A stretch of 64,000 bases of DNA from Bradyrhizobium sp. WBOS07 (GTDB lineage: Bacteria; Pseudomonadota; Alphaproteobacteria; Rhizobiales; Xanthobacteraceae): contig NZ_CP029008.1 of the NCBI RefSeq assembly GCF_024585165.1, forward strand, positions 5,599,501 through 5,663,500, given 5' to 3'. The notes under the pieces were generated by a model. That model saw only the letters and a list, made by a program, of their open reading frames with translations. It was not told the DNA's origin and did not search any database. Position 1 is the stretch's first letter. Every line of letters starts with the position of its first letter. Both the position numbers and the translations under genes were made by a program. Positions 16,734 through 39,518 of the stretch are shown here, piece by piece.

Positions 16734-17036
16734 TCAACGCTTGCTGGATTTGCGCTTCGACGATTTCTTCGATGATTTCTTGGACGTTTTCTTGGCTGTC
16801 TTCTTGGTCGTCCGCTTCTTGGACGACGTCTTCTTGGCAGCTTTCTTCGGGACCTTCTTGCCCTTCTTGCGCGCCTTCGACAGGCCGATCGCGATCGCCT
16901 GCTTGCGGCTCTTCACGCGTCCGCCGCGGCCTTTGCGACCGCTCTTGGCGGTGCCCTTCTTGTAGCGCCGCATCTCGCTTTCGACCTCGCTGCCGGAGCT
17001 GGGTGAGTAGCGACGTTTCTTTGCCTTGCGTGCCAT
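16734..17036 (-). CDS. Lysine-rich DUF6496-type, histone H1-like small protein
   Basis: A 100-residue, extremely basic protein. The N-terminal half contains RKQAIAIGLSKARKKGKKVP, the pattern of DUF6496 proteins. The C-terminal half is an almost pure K/S/T/R tail (repeats of KKTSKKSS type) resembling eukaryotic histone H1 tails or bacterial H1-like proteins. Such tails bind nucleic acid non-specifically. The gene has an EcfG-type promoter 26 bases upstream of its ATG, suggesting it coats DNA during general stress; that role is inference. Confidence 0.85.
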   Translation of the reverse strand: MARKAKKRRYSPSSGSEVESEMRRYKKGTAKSGRKGRGGRVKSRKQAIAIGLSKARKKGKKVPKKAAKKTSSKKRTTKKTAKKTSKKSSKKSSKRKSSKR

Positions 17037-17061
17037 GCATGATTCTCCATTGGCTCAGGAA

Positions 17062-17086
17062 AACCATCCGGACCCACCATGGTTCC
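17062..17086 (-). promoter_or_regulatory. EcfG-type general-stress promoter for the lysine-rich protein
   Basis: On the minus strand GGAAC (17086-17082), 17 bases, then GTT (17064-17062), with the full -10 reading GGTT. The -10 lies 26 bases from the ATG. It matches the GGAAC-N16-cGTT pattern of alphaproteobacterial EcfG/RpoE2 sigma factors except for G in place of C. Confidence 0.6.
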
Positions 17087-17131
17087 GAAACAGCAGGCCA
17101 AGGCCAAGTGTACGCCTAGCCAGGTGCACGC

Positions 17132-17326
17132 CTAGAAGGAGTTCGCCAGCTCGATCTCCGCTTCCAGCACCTGGATGCGCCGCGCGGCCTCGGTGAAGGA
17201 CAGATCGCGCGCATATTGTGCGGGTTGATAGGCCTCTTCGCTCAACCGTTTCAGCCTCAGCCCCTGCGCCCGGGTCATCTGCTCGGCGAGAAAGATCCTG
17301 GCGTCGTATTTACCTTGAACCTGCAT
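17132..17326 (-). CDS. DUF3072-like small protein (64 aa)
   Basis: A 64-residue helical protein containing MTRAQGLRLKRLSEEA and then FTEAARRIQVLEAEIEL, the arrangement of DUF3072 proteins (a short domain found across actinobacteria and rhizobia, function unknown). A GGAGACG ribosome binding site precedes the ATG. There is no membrane segment. It is divergent from the next gene, and the shared 61-base spacer carries a candidate promoter for that gene. Confidence 0.75.
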   Translation of the reverse strand: MQVQGKYDARIFLAEQMTRAQGLRLKRLSEEAYQPAQYARDLSFTEAARRIQVLEAEIELANSF

Positions 17327-17353
17327 CCGGCGTCTCCGTCTTCAAATCCTGGC

Positions 17354-17382
17354 TTGACTATATGTTCTTATTTTGTTCTAAC
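17354..17382 (+). promoter_or_regulatory. Candidate housekeeping promoter for a leaderless transcript
   Basis: TTGACT (17354-17359), a 17-base spacer, and TCTAAC (17377-17382) lie immediately before the ATG at 17388. The expected transcript start would fall at or next to that ATG, and no Shine-Dalgarno sequence is visible. Confidence 0.4.
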
Positions 17383-17387
17383 AAGCC

Positions 17388-17663
17388 ATGGACAACAGAA
17401 TTAATGAAATTCGACGTAAAATCAGCGCCTTGAGGCTGGAGATGGCCGATGTCGAGGCGTCCGTGCGGGATCGCATCAACGGGGATCGCGATTGCACCGA
17501 ACAGGCGCTGGCGCAGCTGGAGCTGCGCCGACAGATCACCTTGCTGATCGCCGAATGGAAGGCGGCCGGCGGCGGCGATGTGCTGCCCGACGTCCACGAC
17601 CGGGTGCGCCTGCGTCTCGTGAAGACAATCGGCAAGCCCGACCGCGCGGCCACCCGGCGCTGA
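17388..17663 (+). CDS. Small coiled-coil hypothetical protein (91 aa)
   Basis: A 91-residue charged protein; residues 1-55 form a likely amphipathic coiled coil (MDNRINEIRRKISALRLEM onward). The remainder is short and basic. There is no signal peptide and no ribosome binding site; the ATG sits just downstream of a good -35/-10 pair, so it may be translated from a leaderless mRNA. Comparable proteins occur in Bradyrhizobium without assigned function. Confidence 0.65.
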   Translation: MDNRINEIRRKISALRLEMADVEASVRDRINGDRDCTEQALAQLELRRQITLLIAEWKAAGGGDVLPDVHDRVRLRLVKTIGKPDRAATRR

Positions 17664-17694
17664 AATCGTTGGGGGGCGACGCCTCACGCCGGTC

Positions 17695-17952
17695 TCAAGA
17701 TTGCTTGTCCTCGGCGATGATGAACACGACGCCGGTGAGTGTCGCGCCGATCGCGAAGGTCGTCACCAATGTGAGGGCGAAGACGATCACGGTCTGGCTT
17801 CCGCCGTTGTTGAGCAGGCTGGCGACGGCCGGATTGCACAGGATCAGCGCGAGACTGAAGACGAGGCCGAGAGCGGCGCCCATCAATGCATGCGTCATCA
17901 GCTTGATGAGGCCGGTCGCAGAAATCAGGTCTGACGACTTTTTTGTGCGCAT
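17695..17952 (-). CDS. Small two-helix membrane protein (85 aa)
   Basis: An 85-residue protein beginning MRTKKSSDLI with two hydrophobic helices (about residues 22-45 and 53-78) and short charged ends, so an inner-membrane hairpin protein. An in-frame ATG exists 24 bases upstream, but it lies only four bases after the -10 of an EcfG-type promoter and would be outside the transcript, so the inner ATG is chosen. The function is unknown; stress induction is inferred from the promoter. Confidence 0.7.
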   Translation of the reverse strand: MRTKKSSDLISATGLIKLMTHALMGAALGLVFSLALILCNPAVASLLNNGGSQTVIVFALTLVTTFAIGATLTGVVFIIAEDKQS

Positions 17953-17979
17953 GGGAACTGCATCCCCATTTGGCATGCC

Positions 17980-18004
17980 AACGCGGGCGGCAAACCACTG
18001 TTCC
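17980..18004 (-). promoter_or_regulatory. EcfG-type promoter for the small membrane protein
   Basis: Minus strand GGAAC (18004-18000), N16, CGTT (17983-17980): a perfect match to the alphaproteobacterial general-stress consensus. The -10 is 28 bases upstream of the chosen start codon. Confidence 0.7.
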
Positions 18005-18093
18005 TGAGGAATGAAGGAATTGTCATCGACCGCTTCATCCGACGTTCATGCTGGTCTTGCGAGGATGAGGCCCAGCAAAACGGGAACATCGAT

Positions 18094-18315
18094 ATGGGTA
18101 AGGTGGTCTTTCTCTATCGCTCGCTGGCCTATCGCAACGCGGCCGCGGACATCCTTCACAAGGCCCGCAAGCTGCCGCGCGGGGCGGAGCGAAGCGCGGC
18201 GCGCCGCTATGCCAGGGCATTGCGCGATCTCGCCCAGACGGAAGCCTGGCTCGAGGGGCGGGTTGCACGCGACCCGCGAATGGCGCGACGCATGACGAGC
18301 GCCGCGTTTGGCTGA
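18094..18315 (+). CDS. Small basic hypothetical protein (73 aa)
   Basis: A 73-residue basic helical protein (MGKVVFLYRSLAYRNAAADI...) rich in Arg and Ala, with no signal peptide or membrane span. I do not recognise a domain. It ends 85 bases from the convergent HWE kinase gene. The coding call rests on length, a coherent amino-acid pattern and the lack of a competing frame. Confidence 0.55.
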   Translation: MGKVVFLYRSLAYRNAAADILHKARKLPRGAERSAARRYARALRDLAQTEAWLEGRVARDPRMARRMTSAAFG

Positions 18316-18400
18316 TGGTTTCCGCTCCGTCTGAAACGGAACGGACGCACTGGCTTATCGCCCTGACGTATCCACTCGATGCGAACCGGTCGCCATTCCG

Positions 18401-19891
18401 CTAACCGGATGCGCGCTGCAATTCGGCGGAGCCGGCGTCTTCGAACTTCCCGGATCGGGCCGTCGCCCCCGTCTTGCGGGTCAGCGGCACCTCCAGGCGG
18501 CACAACAGGCCCTCGGCGCGCCAATCGAACCGCGCTTGTCCACCGAGCTGGGACTCGACGCTCGCCAGCAGGCTCCGCGTGCCGAAGCCGCGCGATTTCG
18601 GAGGCATGACGAGTGGGCCGCCCGATTCCTCCCAGCTCAGCGTCAGCAATTGCTCCTCGACCTGCCAGCCGATTGTGAGCCGTCCCGATCTGGTCGAGAG
18701 GGCGCCGTACTTGGCCGAGTTGGTGAAGAGCTCGTGCAGAGCGAGCGCCAGCGTCTGGGCCGTGGTCGGCAGCAACTGGACCTCCGGACCTGCCAATACG
18801 ATCTGGCCGCCGAGCGAGTAGGGCGCCAGCTCCTCGTCGATCAGCCTGGAGAGCTCGGCGCCCTGCCAGCTCGACAGCGACAGGATGGTGTGCACGCGCG
18901 CCAGCGCATTGATGCGGCCCTCGACGGCGCTGACATAGGCCTTGACCTCGTCGGCCCGGGTCAGACGCACGATCGACTGCGCCAGGGCCAGCGCGTTCTT
19001 GGCGCGATGATCGACTTCCCGCGCCAGCAGGTTCTGCCGTTCCTCGGCACGCTTGCGTTCGGTGATATCAACGGTGACGCCGCTGACGCGGACGACGCGA
19101 CCGCTATCGTCCACCGTTGCCGCCGCCGTGCCGACGCACCAGCGCACCTCTCCGTCGGGCCGCATGATGCGGAACTCGGTCTCGTAGGCCCGCGTGCCCC
19201 TGTTGAACTCGGCGATCGCCTTGCGCAGCTGGTCGACGTCGTCGGGATGCAACAGCGCTTGAACGTTGGCGGGGTTGACCTCGAAGCTCTCGGGGCTGAC
19301 GCCGAAGATGCGATACTGGCCTTCGTCCCACATCCAATCGCCGCTGATCCAGTCCCAATCCCAGGATCCCATCTTGCCGGCCGCGATCGCCATGCTGCGC
19401 CGTTGTTCGCTCTCGCGCAGCTTCGCCGTGGAGTTTTCCAGTTCCGCCGTGCGGGCGCGGACGCGATCCTCGAGCTCCTGGTTCAGTCGTTCGAGCTCGC
19501 GGGTCTTGCGGTAGAGTTCGGCAAACACCTTGATCTTGGCGCGCAGGACTTCCGGCACGACCGGGACCGGTACGTAGTCGACCGCGCCCATTTCGTAGCC
19601 GCGCAACCGGTCGATGTCGCTGACCTGGATGGCGGAGATGAAGATCATCGCGGTCTTCTGGAAGCGTGGATGCTCGCGGATCATCGCGGCGAGCTCGAAG
19701 CCGTCGAGTTCGGGCATGCAGACGTCGACGAGGATCACCGCGATCTCGGTCTTGAGCAGGACTTCCAGCGCCTCGCGCCCCGACGAGGCGATCACGAGGT
19801 TCTCGCCGAGATCCTTCAAGATCACCTCATAGGCGAGCAGCTTGGCGGGCTGGTCGTCGACGAGGAGGATATTGACCTTTTCGTGGTCCAT
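18401..19891 (-). CDS. REC-PAS-HWE histidine kinase
   Basis: A 496-residue cytosolic kinase. The receiver domain (1-125) has its phosphoacceptor Asp56 in VDVCMPELDG. A coiled-coil linker (about 130-185) leads to a PAS_3-type domain (about 190-300) and an HWE kinase core: H-box EVDHRAKNALALAQS, N-box HELFTNSAKYGAL and the WEESGGP segment that names the family. It starts at the ATG matching a normal receiver N-terminus, 13 bases after the stop of the poly-HAMP kinase, so the two form one operon. The receiver is a likely phosphate recipient from that kinase. HWE kinases commonly phosphorylate PhyR-type regulators; the target here is inferred. Confidence 0.93.
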   Translation of the reverse strand: MDHEKVNILLVDDQPAKLLAYEVILKDLGENLVIASSGREALEVLLKTEIAVILVDVCMPELDGFELAAMIREHPRFQKTAMIFISAIQVSDIDRLRGYEMGAVDYVPVPVVPEVLRAKIKVFAELYRKTRELERLNQELEDRVRARTAELENSTAKLRESEQRRSMAIAAGKMGSWDWDWISGDWMWDEGQYRIFGVSPESFEVNPANVQALLHPDDVDQLRKAIAEFNRGTRAYETEFRIMRPDGEVRWCVGTAAATVDDSGRVVRVSGVTVDITERKRAEERQNLLAREVDHRAKNALALAQSIVRLTRADEVKAYVSAVEGRINALARVHTILSLSSWQGAELSRLIDEELAPYSLGGQIVLAGPEVQLLPTTAQTLALALHELFTNSAKYGALSTRSGRLTIGWQVEEQLLTLSWEESGGPLVMPPKSRGFGTRSLLASVESQLGGQARFDWRAEGLLCRLEVPLTRKTGATARSGKFEDAGSAELQRASG

Positions 19892-19904
19892 ACGCGCATC
19901 CAAC

Positions 19905-22900
19905 TCAGCGGTGCAGCCACATGCGGATCGCAAGTAGCAATTGATCGGTGTTGACGGGTTTGGCGAGGTAGTCGGACGCGCCGGCCTCCAGGCACTTCTC
20001 GCGGTCACCCTTCATCGCCTTGGCGGTCAGCGCGATGATCGGAAGGCGGGCGAAAGCCGGATTTTCGCGAATGACGCCGATGGTCTGATAGCCATCCATC
20101 TGCGGCATCATGATGTCCATCAGCACGATGGCGATTTCCGGATTGGATTCGACCAGCGTCACAGCCTCGCTGCCGGTCGTGGCCGTCAGCACCTTCATGC
20201 CGCGCCGTTCCAGCACGCTCGACAGCGCGAAGATGTTGCGGGCGTCGTCGTCGACGAGCAGGGCGGTCTTGCCGATCAGGTCCTCGTCGGAACTGTTCAG
20301 TTTCTCCAGCATGCGCTGCTTCTCGACCGGAAGTTCGGTGATGACGCGGTGCAGGAACAGTGCGGTCTCGTCGAGCAGCCGTTCCGGCGATTCCACGCCC
20401 TTGACCACGATGCTGCGCGCCATGGTGTGGAGTTCCGCGTCCTCCTCGGCCGAAAGCTCCCGGCCGGTGAAGACGACGACCGGAACGTTCGACAGCGTCT
20501 CGTCGTTGCGGATCTCGTCCAGCACCTCGAAGCCGCTCATGTCGGGCAGGCGAAGGTCGAGCACCACGCAGTCGCAGGGCGTCTTGCGCAGCGTCGAGAG
20601 CGCACCGGCGCCGGTGTCCGTCGTGACGATCTCGATGTCGTCGTGATGCAGCAGCTCGCGGATCGAGAGCTGCTCGGCCTCGTTGTCCTCGACGATCAAC
20701 AGCCGCTTGCGCCTGGGACGGGCATATTCCTTGATCTGCGTCAGCGCCGCGGAAACGCCTTCGGTCGTCGTCGGCTTGTTGACGAAGGAGAACGCGCCAC
20801 GCGCCAGCGCATGCTGGCGGTCCTCGTCCAGCGTGATGATCTGCACGGGGATGTGGCGGGTCAGCGGATTGTGCTTGAGCTGGCTCAGCACGGTCCAGCC
20901 GAGCATGTCGGGCAGGAACACGTCGAGCGAGACGGCTCTCGGCTGGTATTGCTTGGCGAGCTCGAGCGCCTCCGCGCCGCGGGCGGCGACAAGCACCTTG
21001 AAGCCCTTGTCGCGGGCCAGATCGACCAGTACGCGGGCGTAGTGCGGATCGTCCTCGACGATCAGGAGAATGGTGTCACCGGGCTCGATGTTGAGCCGGT
21101 CGTCGGGAAGCTGCTCGATGACGCGCGGCTGGTCGGGTGCGGCCGTCTGTAGCGCCGGCGGCTGGCTGTGTTGCTGTGGCGCAGGTGCCGTGCGCGGCGC
21201 CAGCGTCGGGCCGGAATATTTGAGCGGCAGATAGAGTGTGAACGAGGAGCCCTTGCCCGGCGAGCTGCGCAGATGGATTTCTCCACCGAGCAGGCTCGCA
21301 AGTTCGCGGCTGATCGCGAGTCCGAGGCCGGTGCCGCCGTATTTGCGGCTGGTGCCTGCGTCGGCCTGCTGGAACGCCTCGAAGATCAGCTTCTGCTTCT
21401 CCACGGGAATGCCGATGCCGGTATCGGACACTTCGAACGCGATCACGGCCGGTGCGGAGTTCAGCACCGGGTGATCCGTGCCCCAGCCGCCGATCGCGCC
21501 GGCGACCTTCAGGCGCACTTCGCCCTCGGCGGTGAACTTGAAGGCGTTGGAGAGCAGGTTCTTCAGAACCTGTTGCAAACGCTTGGAGTCAGTGACGATG
21601 CTGCGCGGCAGGTTCGGATCGACGTCGATCTTGAACGACAGGTTGCGGTTGTCCGCCTCGTGCCGGAACGGACGGCCGACCGTCTCGAGCAGGTTCGCGG
21701 TCAGGATTTCCTCGGCGTCGACCGTCACCGTGCCGGATTCGATCTTGGACAGATCCAGAATGTCGCTGATGAGGTTGAGCAGGTCGGTGCCGGCGCCGTG
21801 GATGGTGCGGGCGAATTCGACCTGCTTGGCCGAGAGGTTGCCGTCCGGATTGTCGGTGAGCTGCTGGCCCAGAATGAGGATCGAGTTCAGCGGCGTGCGC
21901 AGCTCGTGGCTCATATTGGCGAGGAATTCGGACTTGTACTTCGACGTCAGCGCAAGCTCGGTCGCCTTCTCCTCCAGCGCGCGGCGGGCCTGCTCGATCT
22001 CCTGGTTCTTGCGTTCGACCTCGACGTTGCGCTCGGCAAGCTGCTGCGCCTTCTGCTCGAGCTGGTCGTTGGTCTGCTGCAATTCGCGCTGCTGGGTCTG
22101 CAGCTCGCCGGCGAGCTGCTGCGACTGCTTGAGCAGGCCTTCGGTCTGCATCGTCGCTTCGATCGAATTGAGCACGATGCCGATGGAGTCGGTGAGCTGC
22201 TCCAGGAACGTCATCTGCGAGGTCGTAAAGGAGACGAGCGAGGCGAGCTCGATCACGGCCTTGACCTGGCCCTCGAACAGCACCGGCAGCACGACGAGGT
22301 TCTTCGGCGCGACGCGGAACAGCGCCGAGTTGATCGGCACCACGTCGGATGGAATCTCGCCGACGACGCGCGGCCGCTTGTCGAGCGCGCACTGGCCGAT
22401 CAGGCCTTCGCCGAACTGCAGCACGCGCGGATACGGATAGATGCCGTCGCTGGCGTAGGAAGCCAGCAGCAACAGCTGCGGATTGTCCTCGCTCTCGACC
22501 TGGTAGATCACGCCGGTATGCGCGTTCACCAGCGGCGACAGCTCGGTGAGCAGCAGCCGGCCGACGGTGGTGAGGTCGCGCTGGCCCTGCAGCATGTTGG
22601 TGAATTTCGCCAGATTGGTCTTCAGCCAGTCCTGCTCGGTGTTCACGTCCGTCGTGAGACGGAGGTTCGTGATCATCGTGTTGATGTTGTCTTTCAGCTC
22701 GGCCACCTCGCCGCGGGCGTCGACCTGGATCGACCGCGTCAGGTCGCCCTTGGTGACGGCGGTCGCGACCTCGGCGATCGCGCGCACCTGCGAGGTGAGG
22801 TTGGCGGCGAGCAGGTTGACGTTACCGGTGAGGTCCTTCCAGGTGCCGGCGGCGCCCGGCACGTTGGCCTGACCGCCGAGCCGGCCTTCGACGCCGACCT

Positions 22901-26201: not shown

Positions 26202-26340
26202 ACAATTTTCCCCCGCAGGCGTCGGCCGAATCCACGGCATGACGCGATTGGTCAAAATAGAGCGTCAGCCAAATTCGAAATCAAGCGCCAAGGTTGCGGC
26301 GCGAGGAAATGGAACCTGTCTTGCTCAGCCCGATGCTAAT

Positions 26341-26365
26341 AACCGCAATCCGCTGGATTGGTTCC
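26341..26365 (-). promoter_or_regulatory. EcfG-type promoter for the poly-HAMP / HWE kinase operon
   Basis: Minus strand GGAAC (26365-26361), 17 bases, GTT (26343-26341), with the full -10 reading GGTT. It is about 140 bases upstream of the kinase ATG, longer than for the other sites, so confidence is lower. Confidence 0.5.
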
Positions 26366-27208: not shown

Positions 27209-27301
27209 CGATATCAATCGCGGATGGCGGGCGAAGTTCCCCGAACGTTACGATGCGGTAAGGGCATTGCAGCCCGGGAGTTCCGTCCCCACGTCTTTCC
27301 C

Positions 27302-27752: not shown

Positions 27753-27777
27753 GGAACATTCGGCCCCGCAGTGCGTA
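27753..27777 (+). promoter_or_regulatory. Weak EcfG-like promoter before the 68-aa hydrophilic protein
   Basis: GGAAC (27753-27757), N16, CGTA (27774-27777): correct spacing but the last base of the -10 differs from CGTT. It lies 36 bases before the ATG. Confidence 0.3.
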
Positions 27778-27812: not shown

Positions 27813-28019
27813 ATGGCCCATTCCGACCACGGCATCGTCAAGGACGAGCGCGCCGAGGAGCAGCCCCGCGACAAACAGCGTGCACAGTCCGTGCACAAGG
27901 CGGATCCGAAAGGGTCCCCCTCGCGGGAAGCGACGCGCGATCCGAAGTTGAACGACAACAGCAAGACGCCGGGCTCCGGCATGACGCCGGATGATTCCGG
28001 CGGCGCACCGAGCGGCTAA
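27813..28019 (+). CDS. Small hydrophilic, probably disordered protein (68 aa)
   Basis: A 68-residue, strongly charged protein (MAHSDHGIVKDERAEEQPRD ... NDNSKTPGSGMTPDDSGGAP) with no hydrophobic segment. The composition resembles hydrophilin or other stress-linked disordered peptides common in this genus. A weak EcfG-like motif precedes it and a hairpin terminator follows at about 100 bases. Function unknown. Confidence 0.65.
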   Translation: MAHSDHGIVKDERAEEQPRDKQRAQSVHKADPKGSPSREATRDPKLNDNSKTPGSGMTPDDSGGAPSG

Positions 28020-28169: not shown

Positions 28170-28424
28170 CTACGGCTCGGTCCCGGTGCCGCCCTCGGGA
28201 TCTCCGTGGGTATGCCCGTCCGGTCCCCGGCCGAATACGCCGAAGCTGCTCGACTTCACACCAGCCGCCGCCTCGACGCCCGCGGCGGCCAGTCCGAACC
28301 TGAGCAGCTCGCGGACCGCTGCCGCCCGCGTCGGCATGCGATGCTTGAACCGGAAATCGTCGAGGGCGGCCAATTCCTCCGGCGAGAGCATGACCTGAAG
28401 GCGCTCAGCGCGAAGCTCGTTCAT
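28170..28424 (-). CDS. Ribbon-helix-helix transcriptional regulator
   Basis: An 84-residue protein. Residues 1-45 have the RHH pattern: a beta strand (RLQVMLSPEELAAL), then helices around DDFRFKHRMPTRAAAVRELLRFGL. The tail is Gly-rich and unrelated (ending GDPEGGTGTEP). The ATG at 28424 is preferred to an upstream GTG. No toxin gene is adjacent, so it is not an obvious antitoxin. A tandem half-site array overlapping an EcfG-type promoter lies 15-63 bases upstream, suggesting autoregulation. Confidence 0.8.
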   Translation of the reverse strand: MNELRAERLQVMLSPEELAALDDFRFKHRMPTRAAAVRELLRFGLAAAGVEAAAGVKSSSFGVFGRGPDGHTHGDPEGGTGTEP

Positions 28425-28438
28425 GGTCCACCACACGA

Positions 28439-28465
28439 TTGAGTAGGTTGAGTAGGTTACTCAAC
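28439..28465. promoter_or_regulatory. Candidate ribbon-helix-helix operator
   Basis: TTGAGTAGG occurs twice in direct tandem (28439-28447 and 28448-28456), followed by the inverted half-site. GTTGAGTA (28447-28454), GGT, TACTCAAC (28458-28465) is a perfect 8+3+8 dyad. Its right end contains the -10 GTT of the EcfG-type promoter. Short tandem half-sites are the usual RHH target layout. Confidence 0.65.
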
Positions 28466-28487
28466 GAACCAGCGCGGCGCGGGTTCC
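28463..28487 (-). promoter_or_regulatory. EcfG-type promoter for the ribbon-helix-helix gene
   Basis: Minus strand GGAAC (28487-28483), N16, CGTT (28466-28463): a perfect consensus match, 39 bases from the ATG, with the -10 inside the dyad described for the RHH operator. Confidence 0.72.
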
Positions 28488-29115: not shown

Positions 29116-29462
29116 CAGGCCGCACCTCCGAAGCCCGCGAGCAGGCTGAAGGCGACCATGAGCCACACGGCAAAAGCGGCGATGGTCGCCGGCAACGCGC
29201 CGAGACGAGACCTCATCAGGAGAAGGCAAACGGCGAGGCTGTAACAGGCAAGTGCGATCGCGCCGTAGATCATCGTCCAGCTCTCGGCGGCGGCGTATTG
29301 CGGGCCGTGCTGGACGACGGCGATGCTGAGCGTGGCCAGCGCGACCGATGGCGCCGCGCCGAGCAGCCCGGCAAAACTCTTCGGTCGGAGCATGTCGCCC
29401 AGGATCGCGAAAGCGGAGACGATCAGACCGCCGGCGATGAAGCGCACGAGAGATTCGGTCAT
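29115..29462 (-). CDS. DUF3147-type membrane protein, first copy
   Basis: A 115-residue protein with four transmembrane helices (FIAGGLIVSAFAILGDML, then GLLGAAPSVALATLSIAV, and two in the C-terminal half). It overlaps the PAP2 gene stop (ATGA) and its own stop overlaps the next paralogue. The shared pattern (F-G-G-L-hydrophobic, then a G-LL-A-PSV-A-ATL helix) shows that the two genes arose by duplication. They could form a heteromeric membrane protein. Confidence 0.8.
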   Translation of the reverse strand: MTESLVRFIAGGLIVSAFAILGDMLRPKSFAGLLGAAPSVALATLSIAVVQHGPQYAAAESWTMIYGAIALACYSLAVCLLLMRSRLGALPATIAAFAVWLMVAFSLLAGFGGAA

Positions 29463-30037
29463 GGCCGCATCCTCGAGGCTCGAGGCGGCCGCTTCGCCAG
29501 CGTGAACGGCCTCAACGCTCGCTCGACGATGACGCCAAGCGTGAAGCCTGCCACCACGTCGCTGGCCCAGTGCGCGAGCAGCGCAACGCGGGTCAACGAA
29601 AGCGCCAAGGCGAGGCCGCGCGCCAGCCGGCGCCGGAATGGCGGCAACAGGCCCGCCGCCGAGGCGAGAGCGCCCATATGCACGGCGTGACCGGACGGGA
29701 ACGCGTCGCCGGATCGTCCCGAGAAGGGCACGCCATGCCGGTGGCCTCTGATCGTCAGCCGGTCGGGCCGAGTCTGATCGAACAAGGATTTCAGAAGATG
29801 CGGCAACACGGCGCTTGCGAGCGAGACCCACAGAACGTGGTCCGAGATCGGACGCTGCTGCGGTTGCCTCAATCGCGTGTAGAGCCACCCCGCAGCGGCC
29901 AGCGCGACGAGCACGTGCTCGTCGGCACCCCAGGTCAAGATCTGGGCGGCGTGCTCGAGCCCTGCGTTGGTATGGTCCGCGATCTCATTCGCGATCGCCC
30001 TATCGATCCGGGTGGGTCTGACTGTTACGAGCGCCAT
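29459..30037 (-). CDS. PAP2-superfamily phosphatase
   Basis: A 192-residue membrane-associated acid phosphatase. The three PAP2 motifs are present in order: KSLFDQTRP (K-x6-RP), PSGHA, and TRVALLAHWASD (R-x5-H-x3-D). Several hydrophobic helices surround them. Family substrates are lipid phosphates such as undecaprenyl pyrophosphate or phosphatidic acid. It is the first gene of a three-gene overlapping operon with two DUF3147 proteins, which suggests a joint lipid or envelope function. Confidence 0.88.
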   Translation of the reverse strand: MALVTVRPTRIDRAIANEIADHTNAGLEHAAQILTWGADEHVLVALAAAGWLYTRLRQPQQRPISDHVLWVSLASAVLPHLLKSLFDQTRPDRLTIRGHRHGVPFSGRSGDAFPSGHAVHMGALASAAGLLPPFRRRLARGLALALSLTRVALLAHWASDVVAGFTLGVIVERALRPFTLAKRPPRASRMRP

Positions 30038-30127
30038 CGGTCAACCGGCGATACTTCCTCCATGACAGTTTTGTAAAACGGCGAGACAAGGATGGTTCCT
30101 GAATTCCAGCGTTCGCTCCCAGCTTTG

Positions 30128-31219: not shown

Positions 31220-31774
31220 TTACTTGGTGGACTGGCCGACGCTCGGCGCCTTGCCGAGCTCCTTGGCCATGTCGAGATGGTGCTTCAGGGCGGGCAGCGT
31301 CTTGCCGGCCCAGTCCTTCAGCTCGGCATTGTCGCCACCCTTGGCGTAGCGCTCGAACAGCGACACGGCGTCTTCATGGGCGCTGACCTGATAGGAATTG
31401 TAGTCCGAGCTGAAGTCCTTGCCGTTCGCGTTCTTGAGCTTGTCGAGCTTGCTCTGGTGTGAGCTGTCGAGCTGCGTCGGAAGCGTGGCCTGGATCTTCT
31501 TTTCGCCGACCAGGCCCTTGAGCTCGGTGCTGGTCTTGGTGTGATCGGCGATCATCTGCTGCGCAAAGCTCTTCTCCTGCGCGTTGCCCTTCTGCTGGGC
31601 AAGCTTGCTCGACTCGATCTCGAACATGTCGCTGATCGCGACCTGCTTGACGAAGTCGGGGGTGGAAGGCGCAACGCCGAGCGCCGAATTGACGCCGGTC
31701 TTCTCGCCCAGCGATTGGGCGAGCGCAGGGCCTGCGAGTAGCACGCAGGCAAGGGCAATGATGGTGCGTTTCAT
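31220..31774 (-). CDS. DUF4142 exported ferritin-like protein
   Basis: A 184-residue protein with a clear signal peptide (MKRTIIALACVLLAGPALAQ). The DUF4142 body has FVKQVAISDMFEIESSKLA, then KSFAQQMIADHTK with the conserved His, SHQSKLDKL, and a C-terminal KTLPALKHHLDMA helix. The fold is a four-helix bundle, periplasmic; its metal or ligand is unknown. An EcfG-type promoter 54 bases upstream of the ATG and a hairpin terminator downstream make it a single-gene stress transcript. Confidence 0.92.
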   Translation of the reverse strand: MKRTIIALACVLLAGPALAQSLGEKTGVNSALGVAPSTPDFVKQVAISDMFEIESSKLAQQKGNAQEKSFAQQMIADHTKTSTELKGLVGEKKIQATLPTQLDSSHQSKLDKLKNANGKDFSSDYNSYQVSAHEDAVSLFERYAKGGDNAELKDWAGKTLPALKHHLDMAKELGKAPSVGQSTK

Positions 31775-31827: not shown

Positions 31828-31852
31828 AACACGCCGAGGGCGCCGAGGTTCC
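31828..31852 (-). promoter_or_regulatory. EcfG-type promoter for the DUF4142 gene
   Basis: Minus strand GGAAC (31852-31848), 17 bases, GTT (31830-31828), with the full -10 reading TGTT. It ends 54 bases before the ATG. Confidence 0.62.
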
Positions 31853-31857
31853 TAACG

Positions 31858-32085
31858 CTAATCTGCGGGATTGCGTCCGGTGCGCGGATTGATCGGATCG
31901 GTCGGCTTGCGTCGCAGCCGCTCCGGCAAGAACGGCTCGACGGCGCTGGCCGTGGCGTCGGCTCGCACGTCGGCATGGCGCTGCGCGCGCTGATGCGGCG
32001 TCGTGTTGTCGTTGAAGCTGTGTTTCACGTCGACGCCATCGACGGGATCGTTGACGCCGTGCTGGATATCGCGGAAGTCGCTCAT
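31858..32085 (-). CDS. Small hydrophilic hypothetical protein (75 aa)
   Basis: A 75-residue polar protein beginning MSDFRDIQHGVNDPVDGVDV and ending with a PTDPINPRTGRNPAD tail. There is no hydrophobic segment. Its GAGGT ribosome binding site lies in the 3' end of the upstream decayed TPP-enzyme gene, and transcription probably starts at the EcfG-type promoter before that remnant. Function unknown. Confidence 0.65.
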   Translation of the reverse strand: MSDFRDIQHGVNDPVDGVDVKHSFNDNTTPHQRAQRHADVRADATASAVEPFLPERLRRKPTDPINPRTGRNPAD

Positions 32086-32088
32086 GGT

Positions 32089-32228
32089 TCACCTCATTCC
32101 TTTACAGGCAGGATCGAGCACCTGCCGGTTCATCGCTCCGAACACGCCGTCGCCGGGATAGCCAAGGATGTGGGCGCGCCCCCTTGATGCAGACGCTGGA
32201 CGATGAAATCGGAGACGGTCTGGGACAT
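32089..32228 (-). pseudogene. 5' remnant of a thiamine-pyrophosphate-dependent enzyme gene, frameshifted
   Basis: From an ATG the minus strand reads MSQTVSDFIVQRLHQ. After a one- or two-base frame change near 32182 it reads RAHILGYPGDGVFGAMNR, ending at TGA about 28 codons later. Together these match the N-terminus of pyruvate-oxidase/acetolactate-synthase-type TPP enzymes (SDF-x-RL ... GYPGDGxxG). Only about 45 of more than 500 codons remain. An EcfG-type promoter sits 36 bases before the ATG, so this is a truncated stress gene whose promoter now probably drives the 75-aa gene. Confidence 0.75.
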
Positions 32229-32263: not shown

Positions 32264-32288
32264 AACGGCTCCTTTCCTGCGATGTTCC
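32264..32288 (-). promoter_or_regulatory. EcfG-type promoter before the TPP-enzyme remnant
   Basis: Minus strand GGAAC (32288-32284), N16, CGTT (32267-32264): a perfect consensus match, 36 bases before the remnant ATG. Confidence 0.72.
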
Positions 32289-32312: not shown

Positions 32313-32338
32313 GGAACGATCGCCGCCCCGTCGCGATT
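32313..32338 (+). promoter_or_regulatory. Weak EcfG-like promoter for the PRC-barrel gene
   Basis: GGAAC (32313-32317), N16, CGATT (32334-32338): one mismatch in the -10. It lies about 30 bases before the ATG, back to back with the strong minus-strand site. Confidence 0.35.
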
Positions 32339-32743: not shown

Positions 32744-32758
32744 CAGAAGGATCAACCG

Positions 32759-33575: not shown

Positions 33576-33615
33576 CTCGCGCCCAATTGCACCGCTCGCA
33601 CCGGAGGAGGCGACC

Positions 33616-34353: not shown

Positions 34354-34415
34354 CCGCGTCGCAAAAGTCCGGCTAGACTGACCCAACACAGGCGAATTCC
34401 GGGAGGAGAAACCAA

Positions 34416-35417
34416 GTGAAGACTGCGATCACCGAGCTGTTCGGCATCGAGCATCCCATCATCCAGGGCGGCATGCATTTCGTCGGCTTTGCCGAGCTGG
34501 CCGCCGCCGTCTCCAATGCCGGCGGGCTCGGCATCATCACCGGTCTCACCCAGAAGACGCCGGAGCTGCTCGCCAAGGAGATCGCGCGCTGCCGCGACAT
34601 GACCGACAAGCCGTTCGGCGTGAACCTCACCTTCCTGCCGACCTTCGCGGCGCCACCCTATCCGGAATACATCGCCGCCATCGTCGAAGGCGGCATCAAA
34701 GCCGTGGAGACCGCCGGCCGCAGTCCTGAGCAGTACATGCCGGCACTGAAGGCGGCCGGCATCAAGGTCATCCACAAATGCACCTCGGTCCGCCACTCGC
34801 TGAAGGCCGAGCGCATCGGCTGCGATGCCGTCAGCGTCGACGGCTTCGAGTGCGGCGGCCATCCCGGCGAGGACGACATTCCGAACATGATCCTGCTGCC
34901 GCGCGCAGCGGAGGAATTGAAGATCCCGTTCGTCGCCTCCGGCGGCATGGCCGACGGGCGCAGCCTGGTCGCGGCATTGTCGCTGGGCGCAGCCGGCATG
35001 AACATGGGCACGCGCTTCATCGCCACCAAGGAGGCGCCGGTGCATCAGAACGTGAAGAACGCGCTGGTCGCGGCCACCGAGCTCGACACCCGTTTGATCA
35101 TGCGCAGCTTGCGCAACACCGAGCGCGTGCTGAGAAACGCCAATGTCGACCGCCTCATCGAGATCGAGCGCGAGAAGGGCGACAGGCTGAAGATCGACGA
35201 CATCCACGATCAGGTGGCGGGCGTCTATCCCAAGATCATGCTGGAAGGCCAGATGGACGCCGGCGCCTGGAGTTGCGGCATGGTTGCAGGGTTGATCCAT
35301 GACATCCCCTCCTGCAAGGAACTCATCGATCGGATCATGGCTGAGGCGGAACAGATCATCCGCAGCCGCCTGATGGGTTTCCTGGATGGGACGGGGACGA
35401 CGCGAAAGGTCGCCTGA
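34416..35417 (+). CDS. Nitronate monooxygenase-like FMN flavoprotein
   Basis: A 333-residue TIM-barrel flavoenzyme of the NMO/2-nitropropane dioxygenase group. It has the N-terminal IIQGGMHFVGFAELAAAVSNAGGLG, a GxNL segment (GVNLTFLP), a GGHPGEDDIP loop and a phosphate-binding strand ASGGMADGRS followed by GAAGMNMGTRF. Such enzymes oxidise alkyl nitronates, and some relatives act on enoyl-type or quinone substrates. GGAGGAG precedes the start. It is likely co-regulated with the SDR-like gene by the HxlR protein. Confidence 0.88.
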   Translation: MKTAITELFGIEHPIIQGGMHFVGFAELAAAVSNAGGLGIITGLTQKTPELLAKEIARCRDMTDKPFGVNLTFLPTFAAPPYPEYIAAIVEGGIKAVETAGRSPEQYMPALKAAGIKVIHKCTSVRHSLKAERIGCDAVSVDGFECGGHPGEDDIPNMILLPRAAEELKIPFVASGGMADGRSLVAALSLGAAGMNMGTRFIATKEAPVHQNVKNALVAATELDTRLIMRSLRNTERVLRNANVDRLIEIEREKGDRLKIDDIHDQVAGVYPKIMLEGQMDAGAWSCGMVAGLIHDIPSCKELIDRIMAEAEQIIRSRLMGFLDGTGTTRKVA

Positions 35418-35526
35418 CACCGCCAAACTTCTTAACCACGGCGGCACCTGGCCGCTGGAATTCCACGCGACGCCTCCTAAATAGGGGTAAATTACCCCTT
35501 TCATAATGGAATTTCAGGAGGCGTCC

Positions 35527-35946
35527 GTGGTCCTGAAAAGCGGTTCTTTTGCAATTGCCGTTGCCCTCGTCATCGCATGGGGCGGCATCGCGCGCGCCGA
35601 CGACTACAAGCCAGGCGAATATCTCGGTCTCGATCTCTCCAAGGCCGTGCTGTCGCCAAAGCGTCTCGGGCCCGAGACGCAGTTCGCCCCGCTCGCCCTC
35701 GAGGCGCGCGGCGGCAACGAGGCGCAGGCACGCGCCGAGCCCGTCGACGTGCCGAAGAAGGTGGCGGCCGAGCGCGTCCGTGTGGCAGAGCCGAAGGCCG
35801 CGCATGCGAAGAGCGCGCAGCCGCGCGGCGCAGCCCGCGCGAAGCTGGTGCATCGTCGCGGCAACCCGCTCGACGCACAGGCGATGGACACCCGCATCCA
35901 GACCTGGCCCTGCCGCACCGGCGGCATCTGCAACTGGAAGCGCTAA
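35527..35946 (+). CDS. Exported hypothetical protein (139 aa)
   Basis: Starts at GTG because AGGAGG lies six bases upstream; an in-frame ATG further up overlaps that site. The N-terminus (KSGSFAIAVALVIAWGGIARA) is a signal peptide. The mature region has a YKPGEYLGLDLSKAVLSPKRLGP segment, then a charged Ala/Arg linker and an end with two cysteines (TWPCRTGGICNWKR). This is a frequent Bradyrhizobium secreted-protein pattern of unknown function. Confidence 0.75.
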   Translation: MVLKSGSFAIAVALVIAWGGIARADDYKPGEYLGLDLSKAVLSPKRLGPETQFAPLALEARGGNEAQARAEPVDVPKKVAAERVRVAEPKAAHAKSAQPRGAARAKLVHRRGNPLDAQAMDTRIQTWPCRTGGICNWKR

Positions 35947-35989
35947 GGCGGGATGGGATCAGATCTGATTGCTCCAAGGCAGGTGCGCT

Positions 35990-36108
35990 CCCTCTCCCGC
36001 TTGCGGGAGAGGGTCGGGGAGAGGGCTGTATCCTCAAAGGGACAATCCCCAAGAGGAGAAAGCCCTCTCCCGGCGCTCCCGCCGACCTCTCCCGCAAGCG
36101 GGAGAGGT
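35990..36108. repeat. Dispersed palindromic repeat, CCCTCTCCCGC family, copy 1
   Basis: Bounded by two perfect hairpins: CCCTCTCCCGC-TT-GCGGGAGAGGG (35990-36013) and ACCTCTCCCGC-AA-GCGGGAGAGGT (36085-36108), with inner inverted GAGAGGGCT / AGCCCTCTC segments. The same family recurs at 37.9 and 39.0 kb. The gap of about 340 bases between neighbouring genes holds nothing else I recognise. Confidence 0.85.
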
Positions 36109-36289
36109 GAACGACCCGCGGCAGTCGATTTAACCTAAACCCATTCCGCGCCAGGCAGCGGCGCTGCGGCCGCTGCATCTCGCCCCGTCATCTCCGCGTC
36201 GCAAAATCGTCGGCACGGGGTCAAGAAACCGTAAGCCGGGAGTCAAGGAGCGTAGGCACCTTCCGTCGCGATTCGACGAAGGTTTCCGA

Positions 36290-37864
36290 ATGGCAACGCT
36301 CCGCGCTTCGCGCGCATGGACCCGGCGGCAATTCCTGGTCCGTTCGACCTCGAGCCTGGCGGTTGCCTCGCTCGGCACGCTCGCAACCCCGTATCTCAGC
36401 CGCGCCGCCGATCGTCCGCAGGTCGCCGGCGGCGTTCAGTCCGGCGACGTCTGCGACGGCTCCGCGGTGGTCTGGGCGCGCGCCGACCGTCCCGCGCGAA
36501 TGCACGTGGAGTGCGCGACCGTCGAGAGCTTCAAGACCGTCCTTGCGTCGGCCTCGCGCGATGCGCTGCCGGACGCGGATTTCACCGCAAAGCTGCTGCT
36601 GAACGATCTTCCGCCGGGACAGGACGTCTTCTACCGCATCCGCTTCGACGATATCTCAACCGGCCTTCGCGGCGAGAGCCGCATCGGCCATTTCCGCACC
36701 GCGCCGGCCGCCGGCCGGTCGATCTCGTTCGTGTGGTCCGGCGACGTCGCGGGGCAGGGCTGGGGCATCGACGTCGCGCGCGGCGGCTATCGCAGCTATC
36801 GCACCATGCTCGACAACCGTCCCGATTTCTTCATCCATTCCGGCGATCACATCTACGCCGACTGCACGATCCCGTCGGAGCAGAAGCTTCCGAACGGCGA
36901 GACCTGGCGCAACCTCGTGATCGAGGAAAAGTCCGAGGTCGCGCACACGCTGGCGCAGTTTCGCGGCAATTACAAATACAACCATCTCGACGAGAACTTT
37001 CGCGCCTTCCACGCGGAAGTGCCGATGCTCGCGCAATGGGACGACCACGAGGTCACCAACGACTGGTCGCCGTCCGGCAGCTACGACGACGCAGGCTTCG
37101 AGGATGACGGCACCCCGCGCCTGGTCGCGCGCGCCCGCCGTGCCTTCTTCGACTTCATGCCGATCCGCGATATCGGCGCGCAGCAGGGCCGGGTTTATCG
37201 GAAGATCGCCTACGGCCCGCTGCTCGACATCTTCATGATCGACATGCGCAGCTATCGCGACGATAGCTGGAACAAGGGCAGTGACAGGCGCGGCTGGATT
37301 CTGGGTGCCGAGCAGCTCGCCTGGCTGAAGCGCGAGCTTATTGCTTCGCGCGCGACCTGGAAGGTGATCGCAGCCGACCTGCCGATCGGCCTGATCAGCC
37401 TGGACGCCGTCGCGCTCGGCGACGGGCCGCCCGATCGGCGCGAGCACGAGATCGCCGATCTTCTCAGCTCCATCAAGCGCGCCGGTGTGCGCAACATCGT
37501 CTGGCTCACCGCCGACATGCACTACACCGCCGCGCATCATTATGATCCGAGCCGGGCGCAGTTCCAGGAGTTCGAGCCGTTCTGGGAGTTCGTCTCCGGC
37601 CCGTTGCATGCCGGGACCTGGGGCCCGGCCGCGCTCGATGACACCTTTGGTCCGGTCGCGATGTACCAGAACGGCTGCAGCGCAGCGCAGGGTGAAAATC
37701 TGGCGCCTTGTTTCGGCCTGCAATTCTTTGGCCGTGTCGACATCGACGGCCGCAGCGGCGTCATGACCGTGACCTTGAAGGACGTCGATAATCGCAGCCT
37801 CTGGTCGGTCGACATCGCGCCGCAGCCACAAGCCCGACCGGCCATGGTGGCGCAGCATTCGTGA
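36290..37864 (+). CDS. PhoD-like alkaline phosphatase / phosphodiesterase, Tat-exported
   Basis: A 524-residue secreted metallophosphatase. Residues 1-40 contain a twin-arginine leader (TRRQFLVRSTSSLAVASL), followed by a PhoD N-terminal beta domain (QSGDVCDGSAVVWARAD) and the calcium/iron-dependent catalytic domain with HSGDHIYADC, WDDHEVTND and a later TADMHY segment. PhoD enzymes release phosphate from phosphodiesters outside the cytoplasm. It is flanked by palindromic repeats. No Pho box was identified. Confidence 0.92.
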   Translation: MATLRASRAWTRRQFLVRSTSSLAVASLGTLATPYLSRAADRPQVAGGVQSGDVCDGSAVVWARADRPARMHVECATVESFKTVLASASRDALPDADFTAKLLLNDLPPGQDVFYRIRFDDISTGLRGESRIGHFRTAPAAGRSISFVWSGDVAGQGWGIDVARGGYRSYRTMLDNRPDFFIHSGDHIYADCTIPSEQKLPNGETWRNLVIEEKSEVAHTLAQFRGNYKYNHLDENFRAFHAEVPMLAQWDDHEVTNDWSPSGSYDDAGFEDDGTPRLVARARRAFFDFMPIRDIGAQQGRVYRKIAYGPLLDIFMIDMRSYRDDSWNKGSDRRGWILGAEQLAWLKRELIASRATWKVIAADLPIGLISLDAVALGDGPPDRREHEIADLLSSIKRAGVRNIVWLTADMHYTAAHHYDPSRAQFQEFEPFWEFVSGPLHAGTWGPAALDDTFGPVAMYQNGCSAAQGENLAPCFGLQFFGRVDIDGRSGVMTVTLKDVDNRSLWSVDIAPQPQARPAMVAQHS

Positions 37865-37883
37865 GGGGCGGGCGGCTCGCTTA

Positions 37884-38014
37884 ACCTCTCCCGCTTGCGG
37901 GAGAGGTCGGCGCGAAGCGCCGGGTGAGGGCTTTCTCCTCTTGGGGATTCTCCCGTTGCGGAGGTACCCTCTCCCCAGCCCTCTCCCCAGCCCTCTCCCG
38001 CAAGCGGGAGAGGG
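37884..38014. repeat. Dispersed palindromic repeat, CCCTCTCCCGC family, copy 2
   Basis: Bounded by ACCTCTCCCGC-TT-GCGGGAGAGGT (37884-37907) and CCCTCTCCCGC-AA-GCGGGAGAGGG (37991-38014), with GAGGGCTTTCTCCTCTTGGGG shared with copy 1 in inverse. It contains a short internal duplication (CAGCCCTCTCC twice). The remaining gap to the aldo/keto reductase gene holds nothing else I recognise. Confidence 0.85.
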
Positions 38015-38185
38015 AGCGCACTTCGCCCCTGGCGACGACCTGATCACACCTAACCCGATCTTGATTGGCCGGGCTGCCCTTGCCGGACTATGCTGCTCAC
38101 TCCCGCCATCTCTTTTCCATCACCGAAGAGTCTGCTCATGCGGCAACGCGCGTCCGGCGGGATGCGATACGTCAGGAGCCTGTTC

Positions 38186-39004
38186 ATGGACAATCTGAAG
38201 ACACAGGGCATCAGCATGCCCAAGCTCGGCCTCGGCACTTTTCGCATGCAGGGCGATGCCTGCCGCGCCGCGGTCGAGAGCGCGCTGTCGGTCGGCTATC
38301 GCCACATCGACACCGCCGAGATGTATGCCAACGAGGAGCCGATCGGCTCAGCCATCGCCGCGTCCCGCCTGCCGCGCGGCGAGCTTCACGTCACGACCAA
38401 GGTCTGGCACGAGAACCTCACGCCGGATGCGATCCGGCGTGCCTTCGACGCCAGCCTGAACAAGCTCAGGCTCGACCATGTCGATCTCTATCTCGTGCAC
38501 TGGCCCTCGAAGGCTGCGGATTGGGGTGCGGTGTTCGAGACCTTGATGAAGCTCAAGGAGGAGGGACGCACGCGCGCCATCGGCGTCGCCAATTTCACCA
38601 CGGCGCTGCTCAAGCTCGCGGTCGAGGACATCAGGGCGCCGATCGCCTGCAACCAGGTCGAATATCACGCCATGCTCGATCAATCCAAGGTGCTGGCCTA
38701 TCTTGCGGCGAAGTCGATCCCGCTCGTCGCATATTGTCCGCTGGCGCAGGGGCGGGTTGCCTCGGATCCGGTGCTGGCCGAGATCGGTGCCAGGCACAAC
38801 GCGACCGCCGCGCAGGTCGCGCTGAAATGGCTGCTCGACCAGGACGGCGTCGCCGCGATCCCGAAGGCCTCGCGCCGCGAGAGCCAGCAGGCCAACCTCG
38901 ATGCGCTGAAGATCACGCTCGACGATGCCGACCGCGCAAAAATCGCCGCGCTGCCGAAGGACAGGCGCTGCGTCAATCCGGGCTTTGCGCCGGCGTGGGA
39001 TTAG
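38186..39004 (+). CDS. Aldo/keto reductase
   Basis: A 272-residue NADPH-dependent reductase with an (alpha/beta)8 barrel. The catalytic tetrad is visible: Asp and Tyr in DTAEMYANE, Lys in TTKVWHEN and His in YLVHWPS, plus the IGVANF strand. The C-terminal cofactor segment AIPKASRRES is normal. The start is set by AGGAG seven bases upstream. It resembles the 2,5-diketo-gluconate reductase / DkgB branch; the physiological substrate (aldehyde or methylglyoxal) is inferred from the family. Confidence 0.92.
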   Translation: MDNLKTQGISMPKLGLGTFRMQGDACRAAVESALSVGYRHIDTAEMYANEEPIGSAIAASRLPRGELHVTTKVWHENLTPDAIRRAFDASLNKLRLDHVDLYLVHWPSKAADWGAVFETLMKLKEEGRTRAIGVANFTTALLKLAVEDIRAPIACNQVEYHAMLDQSKVLAYLAAKSIPLVAYCPLAQGRVASDPVLAEIGARHNATAAQVALKWLLDQDGVAAIPKASRRESQQANLDALKITLDDADRAKIAALPKDRRCVNPGFAPAWD

Positions 39005-39030
39005 CGAAGCCGGCGAAGCGTACCGCTGCA

Positions 39031-39177
39031 CCCTCTCCCCTTGTGGGAGAGGGTGGCTTTGCGAAGCAAAGCCGGGTGAGGGGTTCTCTCCGCGCGCGAA
39101 TCTCTTGCGTTGGGGTGCGCTGAAGCAACCCCTCATCCGGCGCTTCGCGCCACCTTCTCCCGCAAGGGGAGAAGGAA
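39031..39177. repeat. Dispersed palindromic repeat, CCCTCTCCC family, diverged copy 3
   Basis: Left end CCCTCTCCCCTTGTGGGAGA with GGG, right end CCTTCTCCCGCAAGGGGAGA with AGG, with inner inverted segments GGGTGAGGGG and CCCCTCATCC. It is more diverged than copies 1 and 2. Confidence 0.75.
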
Positions 39178-39182
39178 GAACG

Positions 39183-39210
39183 CAAAAGAAATGGCCCCGT
39201 GAGGGGCCAC
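39183..39210 (-). terminator. Rho-independent terminator of the His-rich peptide gene
   Basis: On the minus strand TGGCCCC-TCAC-GGGGCCA is followed by TTTCTTTTG. The 7-base-pair stem is perfect and the T-rich tail is in the right place, about 20 bases after the stop codon. Confidence 0.8.
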
Positions 39211-39228
39211 TTCCGTATCTACTCTGCA

Positions 39229-39462
39229 TCAATCCCAGTGATGACGATGGCTGCGCTTGATCACCACGACCTTGTTGCGATGGTGGCCGCGGTGCCAGCC
39301 ATGGTCGCGATGCACGCGGTATTGGGCGCGGGCGCCGTACGGGCCGTGATGATGATTGTGATAGCCGCTGCGCTTGATCACGACCGTCTCCGCACTTGCG
39401 AGCGTCGGCGCCGCGATCGCGAGTGCACCCAGGGCCGCAATTGCATAACCAAGCTTCTTCAT
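39229..39462 (-). CDS. Histidine-rich exported peptide (77 aa)
   Basis: A 77-residue protein with a signal peptide (MKKLGYAIAALGALAIAAPT, cleavage near ASA). The 53-residue mature part has about 15 histidines and many arginines (GYHNHHHGPYGA, HRDHGWHRGHHRN) and two copies of VVIKRS near its ends. The composition suggests periplasmic metal binding (Cu, Zn or Ni), but this is inference. GGAGGAGG precedes the ATG, an EcfG-type promoter lies 32 bases upstream and a good terminator follows. Confidence 0.82.
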   Translation of the reverse strand: MKKLGYAIAALGALAIAAPTLASAETVVIKRSGYHNHHHGPYGARAQYRVHRDHGWHRGHHRNKVVVIKRSHRHHWD

Positions 39463-39493
39463 GACGTCCTCCTCCAATTCGAATGCACATTTA

Positions 39494-39518
39494 AACCGCG
39501 CATTCACACGATCGTTCC
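39494..39518 (-). promoter_or_regulatory. EcfG-type promoter for the His-rich peptide
   Basis: Minus strand GGAAC (39518-39514), 17 bases, GTT (39496-39494), with the full -10 reading GGTT. It is 32 bases before the ATG. Confidence 0.6.

Follow-up and report, generated by a model that had tools for sequence, protein, structure and literature searches.

A cluster of conserved, probably EcfG-dependent promoters in Bradyrhizobium sp. WBOS07

In a window of 64,000 nucleotides (nt) of the genome of Bradyrhizobium sp. WBOS07 (bases 5,599,501-5,663,500 of a single 6.73-Mb contig), the motif GGAAC, followed by 17 bases of any kind and GTT (hereafter GGAAC-N17-GTT), recurs upstream of one gene after another. 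This raises the question of whether the recurring sites are promoters and, if they are, which sigma factor reads them. Comparing sequences across genomes, we put the probability at about 0.9 that the general-stress sigma factor EcfG uses the seven clustered sites, and probably three others, as promoters.

The window holds eight occurrences of GGAAC-N17-GTT. Seven of them, all exact and all on the minus strand, fall within 17062-39518 and are numbered here as sites 1-7 in order of position (Table 1); the eighth (52722-52746, plus strand) lies opposite a predicted gene (52213-52872). An earlier note on this DNA had listed the seven sites with coordinates and strand that all proved correct, had credited three of them with a perfect CGTT as the -10 element, as sites 2, 4 and 6 indeed have, and had argued that so many hits exceed chance. 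Shuffling agrees with the last point: in 100 dinucleotide shuffles of the window the motif occurred 1.07 times on average (standard deviation 1.18), and none of the shuffles reached eight. Measured against the genome rate, seven sites in 22.5 kb have a Poisson probability of 5.6e-6, uncorrected for the number of places at which such a cluster could lie. The note had also placed every site before a minus-strand start, six of them at a distance of 26-54 bases. Those six distances come to 25-53 nt, the same up to the way of counting, but the start that follows site 6, at 32228, belongs to a frameshifted gene relic.

To judge the sites by their conservation, we searched with the poly-HAMP kinase gene downstream of site 3 and obtained 80 named loci, ten of which are Bradyrhizobium loci that retain most of the cluster (the syntenic set, for which row counts include the window's own locus). 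An exact N17-GTT site stands before the small membrane protein gene (site 2) and before the putative regulator gene (site 4) in 11/11 rows each, and before the DUF6496 orthologues (site 1) in 11/12 rows, including all ten syntenic relatives, the one miss being a distant Acidobacterium. Before the kinase gene (site 3), the syntenic rows have N17 with GTT (10/11) or ATT (1/11), and 20 of the 23 Bradyrhizobium-group loci carry a relaxed pattern (N17-18 followed by GTT, ATT or GTA). Site 5, before a DUF4142 gene, has N17 in seven of eight rows and N18 in the eighth. For site 7, which precedes a histidine-rich small protein gene, we read the best 30 of the matches found in 58/60 genus genomes; the site was present in 29 of these 30 loci with the window's own included (28 of the 29 others), 29-33 nt before the start, and the relaxed pattern occurred on the other strand in none of the 30. 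Eight further genes from the same loci had exact N17-GTT upstream in 0/98 rows, although two of these control genes have conserved sites with a softer -10 and one, a PAP2 gene, has a doubtful site.

Counting the gapped 8-mers that are equally common to the orthologous upstream regions was not decisive (43 for the DUF6496 gene, 52 for the kinase gene and 48 for the DUF4142 gene; 5 and 1 for the remaining two). We therefore compared motif columns with spacer columns. With five sites aligned, 39 of 40 columns in the -35 and -10 elements were invariant, as against 8 of 85 spacer columns (Fisher 3e-23, not a strict probability, as the sequences are related and the rows were preselected for GGAAC-N17-(G/A)TT, a filter that removed one of 52 rows). 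Since orthologous genes are preceded by the site at an unchanged spacing even as the spacer sequence drifts, we read the seven sites as promoters.

Allowing ATT or GTA as the -10 element revealed three further conserved promoter sites in the cluster, two of them on the plus strand. The earlier count of seven was therefore incomplete, and the claim that all sites lie on the minus strand holds for exact GTT but not for conserved sites with another -10, which occupy both strands. The site before a second DUF4142 gene was found in 10/10 rows, one of them at N18, with GATT or CATT as its -10, and that before a gene for a protein of 68 amino acids (aa) in all rows (Table 1). Before the PRC-barrel gene, the site was present in 11/11 rows of the syntenic set, with GTT at N17 or N18 in the ten relatives and ATT in the window; none was found in the less related locus L085. 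On the opposite strand, the relaxed pattern appeared in one row for the second DUF4142 gene, in none for the 68-aa gene and in nine (of 11) for the PRC-barrel gene, seven of these nine being the divergent site 6, one a DUF4142 site and one another. The site before the PAP2 gene is doubtful: its alignment shows GGAAC in 7/9 rows and GGAAT in 2/9, and the relaxed pattern in only 2/9.

Across the genome, the position of the motif relative to genes was read for the first 30 places listed per pattern, with a gene caller trained on the window. For GGAAC-N16-CGTT, 27 of the 30 places were non-coding and 15 lay within 100 nt of a same-strand start; for GGAAC-N17-GTT, a set that overlaps the former, the numbers were 20 and 10. 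A reversed control gave 8 non-coding places and one near a same-strand start. GGAAC-N17-CGTT, which is one base longer, gave 23 and 11, and since it shows the same position bias, both spacings seem to be used. The identical spacing emphasized in the earlier note is thus true of all seven sites, which are N17 throughout, but it is no fixed rule. Among the genes downstream of sites genome-wide (38 listed within 160 nt, 20 of them scanned), 12 had Pfam matches, including dodecin, a pyridoxamine-oxidase-like protein, an ATP-dependent DNA ligase, phospholipase D, DUF1236 and DUF3072.

Which sigma factor would read these promoters? The PhyR-NepR-EcfG switch is established knowledge. Under stress, PhyR would be phosphorylated and would draw the anti-sigma factor NepR off EcfG, which would then guide RNA polymerase to the GGAAC -35 and the (C/G)GTT-like -10. 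In the cluster this would lead to joint production of the DUF6496 protein, two DUF4142 proteins, the PRC-barrel protein, the family-less small proteins, the small putative regulator and the products of the poly-HAMP and REC-PAS-HWE kinase operon. The parts of the switch are present in this genome. A NepR gene lies at 4.628 Mb, about 1 Mb from the cluster, and adjoins genes for PhyR (sigma-like and receiver domains) and for an extracytoplasmic function (ECF) sigma factor, which is EcfG; NepR was found in 39 of 40 genus genomes searched, the window's own included. Between phyR and nepR (contig 4626881-4629982), GGAAC-N17-ATT points towards nepR in 30/30 genus loci read, with AATT in 17 and CATT in 13. 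Towards phyR, at the same spacing, GGAAC is followed by CGTA in at least 21 of the 30 and by CGTC in two; the other seven have CGTA or AGTA by eye, and as these seven carry a second GGAACTTT, their -10 was taken from the alignment. The ATT and CGTA of the nepR and phyR promoters are -10 variants that are also present in the cluster.

In sequence, the cluster sites agree with the EcfG consensuses published for Rhizobium etli (GGAAC-N16-CGTT; PMC3892343), for Sphingomonas melonis (GGAAC-N17-20-GTT, with enrichment within 100 bp of the start; PMC6599016) and for Methylobacterium extorquens (GAAC-N16,17-C/GGTT; PMC4814048). The earlier note's proposal of EcfG promoters is thus supported, as a prediction, by cross-species conservation, by position, by the published consensuses and by the genes for PhyR, NepR and EcfG that the genome carries; that EcfG is the user of the sites, and that stress induces the genes, we infer.

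Several observations weigh against this reading. Site 6 was found in only six of the ten syntenic relatives, the other four having no such site. The phyR-nepR region of this genome holds no exact GGAAC-N17-GTT, and the autoregulatory link rests on the -35 and the spacing. Beside EcfG itself, ten further ECF-type matches to it occur in the genome, at up to 40% identity and two of them at 39-40%. In the one genus genome of the 40 in which NepR was not found (5.0 Mb, assembly 93% complete), the best EcfG match is 37% identical, and 21 of 30 GGAAC-N16-CGTT places are non-coding and 4 of 30 near a start, counts that decide nothing given the incomplete assembly and a caller trained on the window. 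Finally, WBOS07 shows no genome-wide excess of the bare motif, with 195 occurrences of GGAAC-N17-GTT against 219 of the reversed pattern.

The gap at site 6 bears on the idea that only some of the sites are live and that site 6, the leftover of a deleted gene, drives nothing useful. Site 6 precedes a frameshifted relic of the beginning of a thiamine-pyrophosphate enzyme gene, and four of ten relatives lack it. Three relatives (L081, L082 and L110) have an open frame of 595-599 aa between site 6 and the gene for a 75-aa protein, and three Pfam domains identify the homologue scanned, that in L081, as a thiamine-pyrophosphate enzyme. Yet three others (L078, L107 and L153), where the enzyme gene is absent, keep site 6 at 23-38 nt before the 75-aa gene. 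We think this idea improbable, although the promoter seems to have outlived its gene.

Slightly less probable still is that the sites are read, alone or together with EcfG, by another GGAAC-type ECF sigma factor, such as that encoded in the window at 59723-60211 or an EcfG-like paralogue at 4.206 Mb. Both candidates are 39-40% identical to EcfG, the window's factor matches the PhyR sigma2 model, as EcfG does, and paralogous EcfG factors that read similar promoters are reported in Methylobacterium (PMC4814048). EcfG is favoured over them because the 30 genus loci read show the cluster's -35 and spacing between phyR and nepR, and the window's factor adjoins its own putative zf-HC2 anti-sigma gene (20.5 bits, below the Pfam cut-off of 22.2) and not NepR.

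Raw counts of the other patterns do not exceed their reversed controls either (89 against 92 for GGAAC-N16-CGTT and 41 against 49 for GGAAC-N17-CGTT). The bare genome scan, which the earlier note had suggested as a check and which we ran, is not discriminating, and we rejected such counts as evidence. These counts could speak for a chance cluster in a GC-rich genome where GGAAC and GTT words abound, an explanation whose probability is negligible given that up to 29 loci keep the motif and its spacing as the spacers drift, given the position bias and given the shuffles, none of which reached the observed number. Among the first 100 of the 195 places, those listed, seven exact sites also fall within 22.8 kb of one other stretch, near 0.52 Mb, and four non-overlapping stretches have four sites each, one of them near 2.02 Mb. 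In the two regions read (contig 516000-546000 and 2018000-2034000) the sites lie partly between predicted genes, and near 0.52 Mb partly inside genes.

Table 1. Sites and genes of the cluster, with positions in the window.
Feature	Position	Strand	Details
Site 1, -10 GGTT	17062..17086	-	promoter of DUF6496 gene, 25 nt before ATG
DUF6496 protein, small, lysine-rich, 100 aa	16734..17036	-	Pfam PF20106, E 3.7e-26
Site 2, -10 CGTT	17980..18004	-	27 nt before ATG at 17952
Small protein, 85 aa, membrane by eye	17695..17952	-	orthologues with 67-84% identity in 10 relatives
Site 3, -10 GGTT	26341..26365	-	139 nt before kinase ATG
Poly-HAMP hybrid histidine kinase, 2098 aa	19905..26201	-	Pfam
REC-PAS-HWE histidine kinase, HRAKN motif	18401..19891	-	Pfam PF07536, E 3.4e-22
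Extra site, GGAAC-N17-ATT, -10 GATT	27216..27240	-	31 nt before second DUF4142 gene
Second DUF4142 protein, 162 aa	26696..27184	-	Pfam PF13628, E 1.6e-07
Extra site, GGAAC-N17-GTA, -10 CGTA	27753..27777	+	35 nt before 68-aa gene; 11/11 rows
68-aa hydrophilic protein	27813..28019	+	no Pfam match
Site 4, -10 CGTT	28463..28487	-	38 nt before ATG
84-aa protein, ribbon-helix-helix-like regulator by eye	28170..28424	-	no Pfam match
Doubtful site, weak -10	30074..30099	-	before PAP2 gene 29459-30037
Site 5, -10 TGTT	31828..31852	-	53 nt before ATG
DUF4142 protein, 184 aa, signal-like start by eye	31220..31774	-	Pfam PF13628, E 4.4e-45
Site 6, -10 CGTT	32264..32288	-	35 nt before start of relic; 75-aa gene follows relic
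Frameshifted relic, beginning of thiamine-pyrophosphate enzyme gene	32086..32228	-	
75-aa protein, next gene after site 6	31858..32085	-	no Pfam match; orthologues in 7 relatives
Extra site, GGAAC-N18-ATT	32313..32338	+	30 nt before PRC-barrel gene
PRC-barrel protein, 124 aa	32369..32743	+	Pfam PF05239, E 1.4e-09
Site 7, -10 GGTT	39494..39518	-	31 nt before ATG
77-aa histidine-rich protein, signal-like start by eye	39229..39462	-	no Pfam match; homologues in 58/60 genus genomes, own included
ECF sigma factor and putative zf-HC2 anti-sigma gene	58846-60211	-	sigma factor 39% identical to EcfG

The least expected members behind an EcfG-type promoter are the poly-HAMP hybrid kinase and its REC-PAS-HWE neighbour. 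In the poly-HAMP kinase, the HAMP and HAMP_2 models of Pfam match 11 stretches each, and these are followed by GAF, HisKA and HATPase domains and three receivers. The gene for the REC-PAS-HWE kinase follows that of the poly-HAMP kinase after a gap of 13 nt, and both are probably in one operon. Among solved structures, the best match of the HWE kinase is 6ph4, whose chain is named a blue-light-activated histidine kinase. Across the syntenic loci, the 139-nt leader between site 3 and the operon (26202-26340, minus strand) shows strong conservation, and it contains the stretch CTTGAT...TCTATTTT, a putative second promoter that could be of the housekeeping type.

Relatives of the poly-HAMP kinase occur in many phyla, and we compared their neighbours and promoters in the 66 of the 80 fetched loci that were usable; the remaining 14 had no kinase start or fewer than 260 nt before it. 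An EcfG-type site was here defined as GGAAC-N16-18 followed by GTT, ATT or GTA within 260 nt. In 54 of the 66 loci, the gene that comes next starts with a similar receiver, ten have no such neighbour, and in two the kinase gene runs off the contig. The ten neighbours scanned outside Bradyrhizobium comprised four HWE kinases, all from Alphaproteobacteria, and six proteins with other kinase parts. These ten and the window's own neighbour were classified by Pfam, and the rest were sorted by alignment to the window's kinase. Where the neighbour is an HWE kinase, an EcfG-type site precedes the poly-HAMP kinase gene in 26 of 28 loci; with another receiver neighbour it does so in one of 26, and with no such neighbour in one of ten. 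Within Alphaproteobacteria the split is 26/28 against 1/9, or 16/18 against 1/9 when the ten syntenic loci are left out. Three of the 26 positives are odd: the site lies at 232 nt in L096 and at 33 nt in L106, and L083 has a 16-base spacer. On the opposite strand, the relaxed pattern was found before the kinase gene in 5/23 loci and, over a wider span, in 11/28 HWE-type loci; at p73 it occurred in 11/11 loci and is the neighbour's site 2.

HWE/HisKA_2 kinases with an HRxxN motif, the Sphingomonas Paks, phosphorylate PhyR in vitro (PMC5898713). The window's HWE kinase shares with them the HWE domain and the motif, in the form HRAKN, which makes it a putative activator of PhyR. Because the promoter tracks the HWE neighbour and such kinases act on PhyR in vitro, a feedback loop is a reasonable reading: the poly-HAMP kinase might pass phosphate to the receiver of the HWE kinase and thence to PhyR, and EcfG would in turn raise both kinases, closing a positive loop. 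We hold this reading tentatively, as possible rather than probable. The link between neighbour and promoter is confounded by descent, most of the HWE loci being from Bradyrhizobium, and the genome has nine HWE matches, which makes the cluster's kinase one candidate input among several. If the loop were true, a kinase type known from fungi, where it belongs to the high-osmolarity glycerol (HOG) osmotic pathway, would have been wired into the alphaproteobacterial stress switch, with partner and promoter changed together.

Some features of the cluster stand apart from these questions. Directly after the -10 of site 4 (28428-28466, minus strand) comes GAGTA-ACC-TACTC, an inverted repeat that has a further TACTC behind it and is partly conserved in the relatives; it may be an operator, as yet putative, for the 84-aa putative regulator encoded downstream. 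As the start of the small membrane protein gene we chose 17952 over 17976; a 93-aa version of the protein gave no Pfam match. A universal stress protein gene (13511-14347, minus strand) lies outside the cluster, and the sites listed include none of GGAAC type upstream of it.

For B. diazoefficiens, a member of the same genus with the same PhyR-NepR-EcfG switch as here, the literature already reports an EcfG regulon exceeding 100 target genes (PMC8092242). The kind of finding is thus known, and the word "hidden", which the earlier note had applied to the regulon, is an overstatement. The cluster would tie the DUF6496 protein, two DUF4142 proteins, the histidine-rich small protein and the family-less small proteins to the general stress response. 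DUF6496 had no mention in the literature searched, and DUF4142 none among the literature matches listed. B. diazoefficiens needs its general stress response for efficient infection of soybean (PMC8092242). The conserved sites form a ready list for reporters, and the kinase operon is a candidate input of the response that can be put to the test.

Compared with the regulons of M. extorquens, R. etli and S. melonis, the cluster differs in packing about ten sites into one 22.8-kb block and in softer -10 elements (ATT, GTA) that are conserved gene by gene. A PRC-barrel gene and an orphan hybrid kinase are likewise among the EcfG-dependent genes of Sphingomonas (PMC6599016). The poly-HAMP kinase itself resembles the Group III-type kinases, such as fungal NIK1 and Myxococcus AskA and AskB, in its long HAMP chain, HisKA, HATPase and several receivers (PMC7643160), and it has the more than five HAMP domains, the HisKA, the HATPase and the receivers expected of this type. 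Partial matches to SpoIIID- and RpiR-like helix-turn-helix (HTH) models over the HAMP domains occur here and are reported for Amb07, AskA and AskB (PMC7643160). The likeness is drawn from domain make-up. Unlike the Group III-type kinases, the kinase of this cluster shares its operon with a REC-PAS-HWE kinase, behind an EcfG-type promoter.

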